From Marinobacter antarcticus (GTDB taxonomy: Bacteria > Pseudomonadota > Gammaproteobacteria > Pseudomonadales > Oleiphilaceae): DNA of 64,000 bases. Each line of letters begins with the position of its first letter. The stretch's first letter is position 1. The stretch spans positions 23,034-87,033 of the forward strand of contig NZ_DRGY01000152.1 of assembly GCF_011049865.1 (NCBI RefSeq). The letters run 5' to 3'. Position numbers and translations under genes: made by a program. The notes beneath the pieces are model-generated. The model ran no database searches. It was not told the origin of the DNA and saw nothing but the letters and a program-made list of their open reading frames with translations. This document shows, piece by piece, positions 35,570 through 57,384 of this stretch.

Positions 35570-37384
35570 TTAATAGAGCCGAGGGATGGAGTTAACAATC
35601 TTAATTACATCCGTAAAATTCAAATCGAGCACGTCTAGATACCATCGTATATTCTCATATCGAGGCTGATTTTCATCGGCGACCAATTCGATGGCCCGGT
35701 CACGGGTTATTTGTCCCTCACGGATTTGATTACTCCTAAACGTATCGTGCTCTGTGAACCCCGCCACCAGATAGTAGATATAGTTATAAAATGCGGCGGT
35801 ACCATCGCCAATACGCCATGTAGTATTAGTGTCCACCGCTATTTCCCAATCATACTCATCAATTAATGTACGATCAATTAACTCTTCATCCCAACGCCAG
35901 TAATCGAATATGTGATAGTAGTCTTTCTTTTCGGTAAAGCTTCGATGGTACTCACCAGAAAGAGTATCCCAAAGTGAAGAGTTGAAATACCCGGGACTTT
36001 TAATCATTGCTTTGAATCGAAGTTTTTGATACTCGAGCTGCTTCTGCCAACCATGACTGTAGACTCGCTCCTCCTCAAAGTCAGGCGGGACACCCAGAAA
36101 CCCCGCTTTGAAATGGGTAACTTCAAGTGGATTTACACCCCAGAGGTTAAGATCAATACCTGTCTGTTTTTTAACAGATTCAACGTGCCTAAAGAAATGC
36201 TTATCACCAGCCGTCAGAATACTTATCATCCCCAAGTGTGGCGCCTTGAGCCACGCTTTAAGGTTCCTTTTAATATTCTCTCGCTTTTTGATAATATCAT
36301 CTGCGATGATGATATTTTCAACTCCCAACTCGGCACACATCCGACTAATATTTCGCCTTCCAAGGTCTGTAACCATACCCCAATCATAAGTATAAGTGAT
36401 TGGGGTCATACCAAGCTCTTTAACTATCAGATGAAGACCATAGCAACTGTCCCGACCACCAGAGAACGGAACAATACAATCGGGAGCACCATCACGGCGG
36501 TACTGCTTTAGCAGGTCAAAAATTTCTTTCTTCGGCTTAGGCACATTGCGCAGTTGGTAATTATTGCAGTAGTTACATACACCCTCTTGATCAAAAGTAA
36601 TGTAAGGCATTGTTTCCGGTAAAATACATTTTGAGCAACGTTTAAGCTCAGGTTTAGGATAAAGCAGTAACGCCTGTTCCGAGTCGATTTGAGAAAATTT
36701 TGGTATTAGATTGACTCGGTCGTCTTTATTTTCTTTTAGCTCGATTTTTTCATTTATTGGAATATCAACATGTACTTCGTCATTGATGACTTTTTTAACT
36801 TTCTCACACTCCAAAACGGAAAGTGGATACTCTTCGGATGAAAAATAAAAGTCGCTATTCTTATAGCCAATGTACAGACTGCCATTATTCGAAAATACCA
36901 CCATTTTCCCAAGCTTGGGCACCACAATTGCTGCCGAAATCACACCTTTACATAGCGCAAAAACTTTTTCGGAAACACCAATTAAACTACCTGTTTTAGC
37001 GATGTGCAACTCCGCAATAGCGGCGATAACCTCTGTATCAATCTCCTGATGCCTAGTTGCTCCTATTTCATCCCAGACAGCCTCATCGTTAACGACAATA
37101 CCATTGTGAATAACACAGATGCCATTTCTGATCACCGGCTGATTATCGCCAAGACCATTGGTTATCAATCGGCTGTGCCCCAAGGCAACTCTGGCGCCCT
37201 TAAGTTTCACCTTCTGCAGTAAATCTTTGATGTCACTGCCTGCGCGATAAATCTGGTACTCCGAGTGTTTAGCGAGCATAAGCCCACTTGAATCACGGCC
37301 CCTTTGTCTTGCGTGCTCTGCAAGAAATTTTAAATCCTTTGCGTCAACTTTAGTTAAAGAAGAAATTCCAAATATTCCACACAT
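35570..37384 (-). CDS. Fused class II glutamine amidotransferase + WbpG/PP-loop N-acetyl sugar amidotransferase-like protein
   Basis: N-terminal MCGIFGISS (Cys2 nucleophile); middle CSKCILPETMPYITFDQEGVCNYC; PP-loop PFSGGRDSCYGL. Confidence 0.85.
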   Translation of the reverse strand: MCGIFGISSLTKVDAKDLKFLAEHARQRGRDSSGLMLAKHSEYQIYRAGSDIKDLLQKVKLKGARVALGHSRLITNGLGDNQPVIRNGICVIHNGIVVNDEAVWDEIGATRHQEIDTEVIAAIAELHIAKTGSLIGVSEKVFALCKGVISAAIVVPKLGKMVVFSNNGSLYIGYKNSDFYFSSEEYPLSVLECEKVKKVINDEVHVDIPINEKIELKENKDDRVNLIPKFSQIDSEQALLLYPKPELKRCSKCILPETMPYITFDQEGVCNYCNNYQLRNVPKPKKEIFDLLKQYRRDGAPDCIVPFSGGRDSCYGLHLIVKELGMTPITYTYDWGMVTDLGRRNISRMCAELGVENIIIADDIIKKRENIKRNLKAWLKAPHLGMISILTAGDKHFFRHVESVKKQTGIDLNLWGVNPLEVTHFKAGFLGVPPDFEEERVYSHGWQKQLEYQKLRFKAMIKSPGYFNSSLWDTLSGEYHRSFTEKKDYYHIFDYWRWDEELIDRTLIDEYDWEIAVDTNTTWRIGDGTAAFYNYIYYLVAGFTEHDTFRSNQIREGQITRDRAIELVADENQPRYENIRWYLDVLDLNFTDVIKIVNSIPRLY

Positions 37385-39701: not shown

Positions 39702-40853
39702 TTACGAGTAAACCTTGATTCTTTTTCCGGTCATCCGAGTAACGAACGACTGAAGTCGCTTCAAGAATTTATACTTCTTTTCCCAAGTTGCAAATTCATT
39801 ATATTCATGAATCGGAGCTTCCATCAACTCGTTAAACTCTGCGCGATTGATACGTAATTTTTTACAGAAGTAGGATATATCTATTTCAAGCTCGTCATCA
39901 TTATAGAGTGGTTCTTTCATTTTTGTAAGTGCATCTTCACGCGTCATTTGCCCCGAAACTATCAAGCTCGAATAATGCGGCCTTCTTTTATCATAACCAA
40001 ACTTAGTCGGAAGATAATAGTTCTGGAAAAATTTGGTAAACAAAGACTCTCCGTGTTTACGAGGATAAGGTTTGTATCCAACAGTTTTTTCAAGCTCAGC
40101 CAGCGCCTCAATTTTGTCGTAAGGCATGTAATTTAACGGCCGTACTGTGCGCATTTTTTTTATAAACGGGTACCAAATATAACATTTAAAAAAACTTATA
40201 GTTTTATATTGTCTGAGCTTCCTCTCGCCAAAACGACTATGTATTGCGTTCAAGTTAATCGCATCCATAGCGCTGCCATGCCATGCCTTTGGAAAAATAC
40301 CTTCCGTTGCCAAATTACCTCCGGATAAAATGTAACGAATCCGATGCTTAGTAGCAAAATGATAAAGGCTAGCAAAAAAAATATGGTCTTGGGGCACATC
40401 CTGGTTAGCAACTCCTGCCCGCAAATAGGCGAGATGCAAATCCCGCATATCCTGCCAATCGACGACATGGGTGTGTAAATCAAAATCACAGTGTTTGACT
40501 ACCGCTTCTATATTTGCGACCGCAAGCTCGCTGTTCCAACCGGCATCGACATGCATTACAAGTGGGCGCAAACCTAATTCCTTTACCCTCAGCGCAAGAT
40601 ATGAACTATCAACACCACCACTCAAACCAAGTATGCAATCATACTCCTGATCTTTGCCTGCGGCTTTAATATCCAAAACGGCTTTTTTTAGTAATTCTTG
40701 TCCCTTCTCGTTTGGAAACCAATTTTTTCGCGAAACACTTTCGAACTCAACACAATGATTACACACCCCATCTTGACTGAATTCAATTTCGGGGTCTGAT
40801 GTATCCATAACGCAACTGGAACATATCTGAACATAGTCACCGCTTGAAGTCAT
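39702..40853 (-). CDS. wbpG: N-acetyl sugar amidotransferase, WbpG family
   Basis: CSSCVMDTSDPEIEFSQDGVCNHC; LGLSGGVDSSYLALRVKELGLRPLVMHVDAGWNSELA. Confidence 0.92.
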   Translation of the reverse strand: MTSSGDYVQICSSCVMDTSDPEIEFSQDGVCNHCVEFESVSRKNWFPNEKGQELLKKAVLDIKAAGKDQEYDCILGLSGGVDSSYLALRVKELGLRPLVMHVDAGWNSELAVANIEAVVKHCDFDLHTHVVDWQDMRDLHLAYLRAGVANQDVPQDHIFFASLYHFATKHRIRYILSGGNLATEGIFPKAWHGSAMDAINLNAIHSRFGERKLRQYKTISFFKCYIWYPFIKKMRTVRPLNYMPYDKIEALAELEKTVGYKPYPRKHGESLFTKFFQNYYLPTKFGYDKRRPHYSSLIVSGQMTREDALTKMKEPLYNDDELEIDISYFCKKLRINRAEFNELMEAPIHEYNEFATWEKKYKFLKRLQSFVTRMTGKRIKVYS

Positions 40854-44789: not shown

Positions 44790-44905
44790 CTAAAGCTATC
44801 TTTTTATTGATTTAGTAAATCGATTTTTCGAAGCTTCTAATTCTTAGGTCCGCAGAACATAATCATTCAACAACAACGACTGTAACCGAAAAGGAAAAAT
44901 TAATT

Positions 44906-49473: not shown

Positions 49474-50784
49474 TTACGCCTTAACAATGTGTTCAGCTGG
49501 CTCGCGGTATTTGCCACGGCTGTCGATAATTAGCTTGGCATGTTGTTTGATCATGTCATAGTCGAAGCGGTCGTGATCGGTTGCCAACAATACCGCATCG
49601 AAGGTCGCAAGATTTTCAGCAGTCAGTGGCTCACTGGAGAGCTTGAAACTGTACTCACGCATTTTCGGGAATACGGGCACATGGGGATCCGAATAGGCCA
49701 CAATTGCGCCTTTGCCTTGGATCAGCTCCATGATTTCTACTGCAGGAGACTCCCGCATGTCGTCCACGTTCTTTTTGTAGGCAATGCCCAACACAAGCAC
49801 CCGGCTGTTCTTTAGGGCTTTGCCAGCATCGTTCAAGCCGTCCATCAATTTGCTAATCACGTATTCGGGCATACCCCGGTTTACCTCACCCGACAGTTCG
49901 ATAAAACGGGTGTTCAGCCCGTATTCGCGAGCTTTCCAAGTGAGATAGAAGGGATCTATGGGAATACAATGGCCACCCAGCCCCGGCCCCGGATAATACG
50001 CAGTGAAACCGAACGGTTTAGTCTTGGCCGCGTCTACCACTTCAAAAATATCGATGCCCATGCGATCAGCCACAATCTTCATTTCGTTGACCAAACCGAT
50101 ATTTACTGCGCGGTGTATGTTCTCTAATAACTTGGTCATTTCTGCGGTTTTAGTGGAACTAACCGGCACAATTTGGTCGATGGCGGGCTCATAAAGGGCA
50201 ATGCCTACTTCCAGGCAAGCGGCGGTATGGCCCCCAACCACTTTAGGGATTGTGTGGGTTTTAAAAATCGGATTACCTGGGTCTTCCCGCTCCGGTGAAT
50301 AAACCAGAAATATATCTTCGCCTACCGTAAGGCCGCCTTCTTCAGCTCTTGGCAGCAACTCTTCTTCGGTGGTACCAGGATAAGTTGTACTTTCAAGCGA
50401 GATCACCTGCCCTTTTCGCAGGTACGGCTTGAGAGCGTCCATGGTATTGGTGACGTAGCTTATGTCTGGCTCGCGGTATTTGTTCAGAGGTGTAGGCACG
50501 CATAGAATCAATGCGTCACAGTCGCGGGCCCTGCTAAAGTCAGTAGTAGCCTCGAAACCACTCTTGAAAGCACTCGCCACCAAGTCTGATGAGATATGTT
50601 CAATGTAGCTTTTGCCGGCATTCAAGAGATCAACTTTTGCGATATCTATGTCGATACCGATTACTTTACATCCGACGTCAGCATATCGCAGCATTAGCGG
50701 CAAACCGACATAGCCAAGGCCTGCAATGCCTATTACGGCCTCTTTGTTTTTTAGCTTCGAAAGTAAAACTTCTAGAGTCGACAT
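49474..50784 (-). CDS. wbpA: UDP-GlcNAc 6-dehydrogenase (WbpA-like)
   Basis: [51 protein letters not shown]. Confidence 0.93.
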
Positions 50785-50841
50785 AGGGTTCTCTGGTTCT
50801 CTGGTTCTGAATTTTGTATGTTTCTAAGTCGCATGTTTTGG

Positions 50842-50853
50842 CACGCTACCGCC
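50842..50853 (-). promoter_or_regulatory. ops element (RfaH recruitment site) in the leader of the wbp operon
   Basis: Minus strand GGCGGTAGCGTG, exact match to known ops core; lies between wzz and wbpA. Confidence 0.85.
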
Positions 50854-50910
50854 CCACCGACCAAGCCTCAGCGTTTTAAGGTCACAGGAATAATAAGCAC
50901 ACCGACGAAA

Positions 50911-50941
50911 CGAAAAGCGTCACCGAGTGATGAACGCTTTC
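50911..50941 (-). terminator. Terminator-like hairpin downstream of wzz, upstream of ops
   Basis: Minus strand AAAGCGT-(loop)-ACGCTTTTCGTTT. Confidence 0.45.
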
Positions 50942-50950
50942 AATTCGTCG

Positions 50951-51730
50951 TCACTGAGCGCCGTCACTCGCCAGGCGATCTCTCACTGAAGACGCAAACT
51001 CACTCATAAAAGTCACCAAAACGCCTATCATGAGCCCCAACAACACTGCCAACGCCATAATCAAACTGCGCTTCGGGGCTATTTTTTCAGCGCTTTGACG
51101 GCTGGTAACGAGTAGTTCAACGTCATCAAGACCCACGAGCTGAAGCTCAAGCTTCGAACGATTCTCAATTGCACTGGCAATTGCTTCACCGGCATCCTTT
51201 TCACCTTTCAGCAAGTCAACAGTCCTTCCCAGTGATTGTATCTGGCTCTCCAGACTGGCTTGCTCTACTTTTACTAGGCGCCCTTGAGAGTCAGCAACTT
51301 TGGCTATCAACGCTTCATGAACAGCTTTTACGGATTTACTATTTTCAGCCGTAGTACTGCTGTTGAATTGAATAAGGCCGGTATCTTCAGGATTACTGAA
51401 GGACACATCAAAAGGCATTTTTTTATCATGCTCGGCTCGATAAGCCGATTGCGCCTCCGGCAACCAACGATTTTCCAGTGTTGCAATTGCCGTTGTAGGC
51501 GGCTGAACAAAGGTGCCGCCGTCTTTTTGGGCCACCTGAACCAGGCTAACGTATTGGTATTCGTTCGGTGTTAACAGCGCGTAGGCCAAACCCGCAAGCG
51601 TAATTGCAACGAAAACGGCGTAGAAGGCCCGGCGCCTGCGAATAAAGATCGCGGCAAGATCGACCAGGCTGATCTCATCAGAATAGTCTGTCCGGTGATT
51701 GTTAGGAGAAGTCATTTGTTGATCTTGCAT
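50951..51730 (-). CDS. wzz: Wzz-family chain-length determinant
   Basis: EISLVDLAAIFIRRRRAFYAVFVAITLAGLAYALLTP, C-terminal TM. Confidence 0.88.
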   Translation of the reverse strand: MQDQQMTSPNNHRTDYSDEISLVDLAAIFIRRRRAFYAVFVAITLAGLAYALLTPNEYQYVSLVQVAQKDGGTFVQPPTTAIATLENRWLPEAQSAYRAEHDKKMPFDVSFSNPEDTGLIQFNSSTTAENSKSVKAVHEALIAKVADSQGRLVKVEQASLESQIQSLGRTVDLLKGEKDAGEAIASAIENRSKLELQLVGLDDVELLVTSRQSAEKIAPKRSLIMALAVLLGLMIGVLVTFMSEFASSVRDRLASDGAQ

Positions 51731-51862
51731 TAACGTCGAGTCCCAAAAATAGCTTGTGATCTGGGCACGTGATTCAGCTAAATCAGATGCCAGCTTTATT
51801 CGGACTGTATTCTACAGATTCCGCCTACTAATTTCCGTCATCAGATAAGGAAATTCCCCGAT

Positions 51863-52342
51863 TTAACGTTTTATCGCCGAAACCGGCACCTTCACCCGCT
51901 GATGCTTTTGCATAAAGCTAATGAGCACGATGGCCCGCTCTTCGCCATCATACGCCTGAAATACTGCATTGATGCCTTCAAACGCCCCCTCACTCATTTG
52001 AACCGCTTCGCCATGCTTGAGCCCGCCCTGCTGCGTAATGGCATTCAGGCTGTCTTTGACGTGCTGAATAATTTCATCGGAGATGGCTGCCGGCTTGTTC
52101 GCAAAACTGACAACCCTTAGAACGCCGCGGGTTGAGCGAATTTTTGCCCAGTTGGGATCGGTCTGTTCGAGATTGACGAACATATAACCACGAAACAGTG
52201 GTTCAAGCTTTTGGGCACGTTTTCCGGATTTGATTTTTTCTACCTGAACTTTCGGGTAGAAGCAGTCAACGTCCTGATTCTGCAGGTGGGCAAGCGCCCG
52301 ATCGCCTTGTGCGGGCTTGTGCTGGAGAGCGTACCAAGTCAT
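51863..52342 (-). CDS. rfaH: RfaH-type NusG paralogue antiterminator
   Basis: MTWYALQHKPAQGDRALAHLQNQDVDCFYPKVQVEKIKSGKRAQKLEPLFRGYMFVNL. Confidence 0.92.
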   Translation of the reverse strand: MTWYALQHKPAQGDRALAHLQNQDVDCFYPKVQVEKIKSGKRAQKLEPLFRGYMFVNLEQTDPNWAKIRSTRGVLRVVSFANKPAAISDEIIQHVKDSLNAITQQGGLKHGEAVQMSEGAFEGINAVFQAYDGEERAIVLISFMQKHQRVKVPVSAIKR

Positions 52343-55769: not shown

Positions 55770-56126
55770 ATGACCCCACTACTGCAACAACTCAAACATC
55801 GACGATTAACGCTCGGCCTCAAGCAACGCGATATGATGCTACGCGTTGGGGTCTCGCGCCAACAGTACCAACGCTTGGAATCCAAGGGAAATCCCAGGCT
55901 GGATACTCTGGAACTGATAGCGAAAGGCCTTAACAGCACACTCATGCTTATCCCCGAAGATAAGCTCAGCGCGGTTCGCGCCGTGCTGGAGAAAGAAGTT
56001 GGAAATTCTGATATGGGTTCACCCACACCGGATAAATCGCCAGAATCTGCCAAAGATAACAGGAAACAAAGCCTGGTTGATAACCCATGGCAAGGTTTAC
56101 TGGGGGAAGACATTGATGAGCGATGA
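55770..56126 (+). CDS. HipB-like HTH antitoxin
   Basis: LKQRDMMLRVGVSRQQYQRLESKGNPRLDTLELIAKGLNSTLMLIP; 11-bp overlap with hipA-like. Confidence 0.85.
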   Translation: MTPLLQQLKHRRLTLGLKQRDMMLRVGVSRQQYQRLESKGNPRLDTLELIAKGLNSTLMLIPEDKLSAVRAVLEKEVGNSDMGSPTPDKSPESAKDNRKQSLVDNPWQGLLGEDIDER

Positions 56127-57384
56127 TTTCACGGAAGAAGTGAGCGCACTCCGCTTGACGCTGCACGGTAAACTGGTTGGCTACCTGGCCGGTTTTCAGG
56201 GCGGGCGCAATGTTTTAAGCTTTGCTGAGAGCTTCCGAACAGATACGAACCGTCCCACATTCAGCTTGATTACTCACCCGGTATTCCCACACGCAGAGAA
56301 ATTGATTGCCGAAGCCTGGACAAGAACTCAAAAACTGCATCCCGTACTGTCTAATTTGCTTCCCGAAGGGGCGTTGAGAGCGTTAGTTGCGCAAGGGCTC
56401 AAAGTTCACACCGATAATGAATTCCACATTTTTTCTCATCTGGGGGAAGACCTGCCAGGCGCTTTAGTAGCCGAGCCCATGAAGCCAGAAGATGTACCAA
56501 AGAGTGTTCTTGGCACTCGTGGCAACGCCAGAGCCGTTACGTTTCAGAAAACCTCTTCCGGCAATAAGTTTTCTCTGGCCGGTGTTCAAATGAAGTTTTC
56601 AATGAAAGCCATTGATGGTCGTTACACTCTTTCAAAAGGCAATATTCTGGGCGACTGGATTGTTAAAACACCGTCTACGTTACACAGAAATGTACCAGCC
56701 AACGAGTTCACCGCCATGACGCTGGCGGCACTCGCCGGAATCAATATTCCTGACATCGAACTGGTTGAATTAAGCAACCTGGACAACCTCCCCCAGATAA
56801 ACCTGCCCGATGAGAAACAGGCTTTTGCGATCAAGCGCTTTGATCGCGACAATGGCACCCGCATCCACATGGAAGACTTCGCCCAAGTGCTAATGAAGTA
56901 CCCTCACGAGAAATATAATTCGGCAAGTTATGAACAAATCGGCCGAATTCTCTACAAATTTTCCGGCGACGGGCTAGTCGATGCGCAACAATTCGCCAGG
57001 CGATTGCTGGTAAATATTCTTCTCGCTAATGGCGATGCGCACCTAAAGAACTGGAGCCTGCTTTATTCCGACCAGGTTACCCCCCGGCTCTCGCCTGCCT
57101 ACGATATCGTCACAACCAGCGTTTACATTGAGAATGAAACACAATACGCGCTCAACCTGGCAAAAACCAAAGACTGGTATGGCGTTTCATATGCGCATTT
57201 CCAATCCTGGGCTGGCCGGTCCGACATTCCGTGGAGAGCAATTAAGCCACACCTGGATGACACAATGGAAAAAGCAAGAGATCTGTGGCCAAAGGCCATC
57301 GGAAACCTACCTATGAATGAAGGCCACAAGCGAAAGCTCAAAAAACACTGGAGCAAACTGGAAAGCGATTTTCGTATTCTGTGA
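56116..57384 (+). CDS. HipA-like kinase toxin (track start 55999 is too long)
   Basis: MSDDFTEEVSALRLTLHGKLVGYLAGF; LAGVQMKFSM; NGDAHLKNWSLLY; LSPAYDIV. Confidence 0.92.
   Translation: MSDDFTEEVSALRLTLHGKLVGYLAGFQGGRNVLSFAESFRTDTNRPTFSLITHPVFPHAEKLIAEAWTRTQKLHPVLSNLLPEGALRALVAQGLKVHTDNEFHIFSHLGEDLPGALVAEPMKPEDVPKSVLGTRGNARAVTFQKTSSGNKFSLAGVQMKFSMKAIDGRYTLSKGNILGDWIVKTPSTLHRNVPANEFTAMTLAALAGINIPDIELVELSNLDNLPQINLPDEKQAFAIKRFDRDNGTRIHMEDFAQVLMKYPHEKYNSASYEQIGRILYKFSGDGLVDAQQFARRLLVNILLANGDAHLKNWSLLYSDQVTPRLSPAYDIVTTSVYIENETQYALNLAKTKDWYGVSYAHFQSWAGRSDIPWRAIKPHLDDTMEKARDLWPKAIGNLPMNEGHKRKLKKHWSKLESDFRIL

Follow-up and report, generated by a model that had tools for sequence, protein, structure and literature searches.

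The 64,000-nucleotide stretch of Marinobacter antarcticus DNA analyzed here (the window) probably carries a functional antitermination module, the Marinobacter version of RfaH-ops, with the regulator gene and its target at the same locus (Table 1). The mechanism is ordinary and already known; the linked, single-target form is unusual. The locus is best read as a local RfaH-ops circuit, because the linkage and the co-occurrence of the two components across the family are very strong. To that extent, the self-contained circuit proposed in an earlier reading of the DNA from its letters alone (the sequence-only reading) is supported, and the genome has no second copy of either component. RfaH in this genome probably has one target.

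Table 1. Features of the rfaH-ops locus, in window coordinates
Feature	Position	Strand	Description
rfaH	51863-52342	minus	159 aa; ORF and family model
wzz-like chain-length determinant (PF02706)	50951-51730	minus	between rfaH and ops
Hairpin between wzz and ops	50903-50950	minus	∼20 bp stem, -24.2 kcal/mol, z = -4.5
Relict ops-ORF start, GTG ACC TTA AAA CGC TGA	50868-50885	minus	relatives have ATG ACC TTA AAA CAC TGG
Extended element around ops, GGTCGGTGGGGCGGTAGCGTGCC	50840-50862	minus	nearly invariant in relatives
ops, GGCGGTAGCGTG	50842-50853	minus	exact enterobacterial 12-mer, wbpA leader
wbpA-type nucleotide-sugar dehydrogenase	49474-50784	minus	first gene after ops
Putative ops-headed polysaccharide operon	29889-50784	minus	∼20.9 kb, wbpA to wbpM-type dehydratase

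An Exact ops Element and a Genuine RfaH

The sequence-only reading had found an exact enterobacterial ops core in the minus-strand leader of wbpA, with an rfaH-type gene about 1 kb upstream, and both identifications are borne out. The wbpA start lies 58 bp downstream of ops, and the 12-mer contains the C3:G8 pair, the flipped T6, and the T11-G12 pause signal, bases whose roles have been described (PMC5995543). A pattern search of the window found no second exact copy of GGCGGTAGCGTG, and the genome-wide search for further copies that the same reading had proposed returned this one exact copy in 3.93 Mb. The 12-mer alone is not beyond chance genome-wide, because this genome also holds two copies of a reversed control pattern. 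What does go beyond chance is where the 12-mer lies, in a leader next to rfaH, and that relatives conserve it. All 23 bases of the extended element match the consensus of the relatives exactly, while the flanks have changed.

The rfaH gene lies 1,009 bp upstream of ops and is single copy, being the sole match in the window genome. Its product scores 159.8 bits against the NCBIfam equivalog TIGR01955 (cut-off 144.5) and 142.2 bits against NF006534 (cut-off 124), and falls below the cut-offs of the NusG, UpxY, and LoaP models. The closest solved structure is that of E. coli RfaH, for which the residues that contact DNA and those that maintain autoinhibition have been assigned (PMC7593976, PMC5995543, PMC13015549). 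The ops-binding residues of the E. coli protein are K10, H20, R23, Q24, and R73, with R23 forming part of the T6 pocket. Window RfaH keeps K10, H20, Q24, and R73, and has asparagine (N22) in place of R23, so ops recognition probably differs in detail from that in E. coli. The autoinhibition residues E48, I93, F130, R138, and L142 are all identical.

This pattern extends to the 48 RfaH proteins that we aligned (E. coli numbering). Q13, R16, Q24, T72, R73, E48, F130, and R138 are kept in 48/48, K10 and L142 in 47/48 each, I93 in 45/48, and H20 in 41/48; the R23 position is asparagine in 47 of the 48. For the C-terminal domain (residues 111-159), which in RfaH is expected to form an alpha-hairpin in the free protein, AlphaFold2 with 48 rows predicts short helices and no barrel strands, at low confidence (pLDDT ∼38-67).

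ops Accompanies rfaH across the Family

Our survey comprised 163 genomes of the family, 109 with rfaH and 54 without. The 16-mer GTGGGGCGGTAGCGTG occurs exactly in 103 of the 109 rfaH-positive genomes and in 1 of the 54 rfaH-negative genomes (Fisher p ∼8e-35, a value inflated because the genomes are related). Within the genus the corresponding counts are 97/99 and 1/25, and the lone rfaH-negative genome with the 16-mer is 62% complete. Among the listed genomes, an exact ops lies within 2 kb of 52 of 83 rfaH genes. It is downstream on the same strand in 47 of these linked cases and upstream and divergent in five; neither of the two orientations with ops reading toward rfaH is seen. The flanks are conserved as CGGTGGG-ops-CCTGA, although the flanking bases were not part of the search pattern. 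In a scan of named-species genomes, the element is found almost wholly in Marinobacter; the other carriers are Tamilnaduibacter, Halospina, and a few bins of poor classification. From these sequence comparisons, we regard the rfaH-ops link as biological.

Second, divergent rfaH copies occur in some Marinobacter (G025, G044, G069, and G097; L156, L161, L171, and L169), and in L169 and L168 an ops with one mismatch, TGCGGTAGCGTG, is located 148 bp downstream. The Marinobacter rfaH-ops-wzi locus is also carried by contigs binned as Rhodopirellula (L213) and Halomonas (L210), which looks like mis-binning.

The Region from wzz to the wbp Operon

The largest gap in the same-strand run from wbpA to the wbpM-type gene is 116 bp, at 44790-44905. 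The run encodes a WecB-type epimerase, WbuX amidotransferases, HisH/HisF-like partners, an initiating sugar transferase, and a PseC-like aminotransferase, and the wbpA start has a weak Shine-Dalgarno sequence (-2.9 kcal/mol). Two WbuX-family sugar amidotransferases are present in this one cluster (35570-37384 and 39702-40853); the former has a glutamine-amidotransferase-like N-terminal half and lies beside separate HisH/HisF-like genes.

The sequence-only reading also described a terminator-like hairpin between wzz and ops and suggested that wzz and the wbp operon may be separately transcribed. The hairpin is real, as its z score attests, but it makes a poor intrinsic terminator: there is no clean U-run after it, and the terminator scan did not pick it up. 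Separate transcription is not established, given this poor terminator and the absence of the promoter conserved in the relatives (see below), which is missing from the window leader. Across the window genome that promoter has only two-mismatch matches (12, versus 6 for a reversed control), none of them near the locus, and a promoter scan found no sigma-70-like promoter on the minus strand of the wzz-ops region. The gap between wzz and ops is 97 bp in the window versus 187-325 bp in relatives of the same gene order, and the long hairpin was not seen in the gaps read from six relatives.

In Most Relatives ops Lies within a Coding Sequence

In most Marinobacter, ops is preceded by a start codon in the arrangement ATG-(32 nt)-ops, and the open frame encodes a signal peptide, MT[LS]KHW[AT]LVGGAVACL. 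This ORF continues into either Wzi (∼495 aa; PF14052, 6e-87) or a YjbH-like protein (∼690 aa; PF06082, 6e-22), and its first 16 codons are common to these two unrelated proteins. Within Marinobacter wzi, ops falls inside codons 11-15. In other relatives, ops precedes wzz in a leader that is not translated, or it sits in a micro-ORF of 18-24 codons. Because the known RfaH sites are in untranslated leaders, an ops within coding sequence is unusual. Mainly open-access literature yielded nothing relevant on ops in coding sequence or on RfaH in Marinobacter, and an ops within coding sequence with its start codon upstream is undescribed in the literature searched.

We measured constraint in 64 wzi genes that were identified from the similarity of their proteins. 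An exact ops is present in 63 of them. Invariance of at least 98% is reached by just 5 of 80 four-fold synonymous columns, and all five fall in the ops codons and their conserved flank (GGT GGG GCG GTA GCG); the median invariance of the other four-fold columns is 0.55. Because near-invariance of synonymous columns is confined to the ops codons, ops is under DNA-level constraint within the coding sequence. In the one exception (L251), wzi is not behind ops, the ops sequence is lost, and the protein reads SGALVC. Other signal peptides are found in wzi genes not headed by ops.

The start of the ops-ORF is almost without a Shine-Dalgarno sequence (mean duplex energy -0.9 kcal/mol, n = 59), compared with a mean of -4.6 kcal/mol for rfaH starts (n = 112). 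In most relatives, a promoter of nearly constant composition, TTG-N3-N16-TA[AG]AAT, lies ∼103-112 nt before this start. A leaderless mRNA was rejected because in most relatives the best promoter match keeps a nearly constant distance of 94-116 nt from the start. We also considered an RNA hairpin, CACUGG/UCGGUG (-20 to -2), upstream of ops. It pairs in most sequences, yet it was dropped because the changes are mostly one-sided G-U, the minimum-energy folds differ, and covariation gives no support. A separate conserved leader motif, ACA[AG]GGAY followed by a AGTTGGGA block, precedes the ops-ORF start by 50-71 nt in L061, L077, L128, and others. It is present at 37 of 83 ops sites, versus 0.8% of shuffled leaders, and was not seen in the window leader; we take it to resemble a CsrA/RsmA site.

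The Window Leader as a Probable Remnant

In the window, the frame of the ops-ORF is broken (GTG...TGA), and wzi has no match anywhere in the genome. The leader thus looks like a relict in which ops has been kept, and since ops lies within coding sequence in most relatives, it is probably a remnant and not purpose-built. The rfaH-ops arrangement is genus-wide; the sequence-only reading had missed both this and the coding position of ops in most relatives.

On the RfaH tree, the window falls in a group of 13 that includes 11 members of the coding type (fork support 92). Over the tree as a whole, the state has to change ∼16 times, with no fewer than 7 of these changes forced by well-supported branches, versus 17.3 for shuffled labels. 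As this is hardly fewer than for shuffled labels, the sequence behind ops appears to have been exchanged often, with ops like a joint. The wzi behind ops is itself broken in L105 (G074) and L129/L272 (G089), possibly another early stage of the decay seen in the window.

Proposed Mechanism and Alternatives

For pausing, recruitment, antitermination, ribosome bridging, and the activity of the window copy, our model draws on E. coli RfaH (PMC5995543, PMC11001881, PMC7593976). RNA polymerase would pause at ops while transcribing the leader, and RfaH made 1 kb away would bind the exposed non-template hairpin and stay on the polymerase. The bound RfaH would keep NusG and Rho off, with transcription running through the 21-kb wbp operon, and bridging between RfaH and S10 would let translation run through it too. 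The window would be a derivative in which the ops-ORF decayed, wzi was lost, and ops was kept before wbpA, giving the E. coli-like order of ops and then start.

Alternatively, with wzi and the leader promoter lost, the window ops could be a silent leftover, and wbp would now depend on read-through or on a promoter located downstream of ops, independently of RfaH. The missing promoter of the relatives, the failure to find a minus-strand sigma-70-like site in the region, the broken ops-ORF, and the hairpin upstream of ops are all consistent with such a leftover. We nevertheless consider it unlikely: the extended element retains the exact consensus amid changed flanks, rfaH is intact and the genome has no other extended ops site, and several relatives without the ops-ORF likewise keep ops.

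Two further readings concern the element itself, and we find both highly improbable. As the element is translated in most relatives, conservation of GTGGGGCGGTAGCGTG might reflect the amino acids of the signal peptide only, with no DNA signal. Invariance of synonymous third bases only at the ops codons argues against this, as do neighboring amino-acid changes (GGT to TGT or AGT) that spare the 16-mer, the retention of GTGGGGCGGTAGCGTG at ORF-less sites, including wzz-first leaders, and its disappearance with rfaH. That the 12-mer is a chance match, with the adjoining rfaH acting elsewhere in trans, would fit the ∼1-2 chance copies per genome indicated by the reversed-pattern control, but is contradicted by the linkage, the orientation, and the extended conservation in >100 genomes.

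Within the RfaH-ops module that we favor, the Marinobacter ops may be dual-coding, serving RfaH as DNA and the ribosome as signal-peptide codons; the window would then be a naturally occurring knock-out, its coding half lost and its DNA half kept. We put this forward tentatively, as an idea that may well prove wrong. If it is true, the start, which lacks a Shine-Dalgarno sequence and lies ∼42 nt upstream of the pause base T11, would already be out of the polymerase, and ops-bound RfaH would have to bring the ribosome to this upstream start, which turns the E. coli model around. The published view places ribosome capture in the interval from ops to a start codon farther downstream (PMC11001881), a picture that does not cover the reversed order of start and ops in most relatives. 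The relatives with a fixed upstream start and those with a broken ORF, together with the window, are ready-made variants for testing Shine-Dalgarno-less ribosome recruitment by RfaH, and clean single-target RfaH genomes become available.

Comparison with Known Systems

E. coli rfaH is not linked to its several targets, in which ops is followed by the start codon at a distance of no more than 100 nt (PMC7593976, PMC11001881). The E. coli and enterobacterial rfb, rfa, hly, and tra systems involve the same curated family and the same 12-nt ops, and the E. coli RfaH operons likewise include a long surface-polysaccharide operon whose first gene has a weak or no Shine-Dalgarno sequence. The window shares the E. 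coli order of ops and then start, but its rfaH adjoins one target; in most Marinobacter relatives, by contrast, the start precedes ops by 32 nt, and ops itself is translated. JUMPstart is a 39-bp enterobacterial leader element whose upstream half precedes ops, whereas the upstream block in Marinobacter, CCTNAAAnCACTG...GGTNGGTG, looks by appearance like its own.

The Klebsiella cps locus has JUMPstart/ops in promoter P2 upstream of wzi, the first gene of the transcript (PMC3438125). There, ops precedes wzi as in the Marinobacter relatives, but rfaH is elsewhere in the genome, whereas in Marinobacter ops is inside the wzi codons, with rfaH as the usual neighbor. UpxY, TaA, and other NusG paralogs are encoded in their own operons, and monomorphic RfaH homologs beside LPS operons (PMC7593976, PMC13015549). 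In these cases, as in Marinobacter, the antiterminator gene lies beside the long operon that it presumably serves. For the monomorphic homologs, a cis-acting mode that does not need ops has been proposed, and those tested miss some ops-binding residues (PMC7593976, PMC13015549). Marinobacter RfaH, in contrast, keeps most of the ops-contact residues and all of the autoinhibition residues checked, with a real ops nearby. An RfaH with apparently ops-dependent residues beside its target blurs the proposed division of RfaH into metamorphic proteins acting in trans and monomorphic ones acting in cis (PMC13015549).

Adjoining the locus, at 55770-57384 on the plus strand, an HTH gene overlaps a HipA-like kinase ORF, a possible HipBA-type toxin-antitoxin pair.
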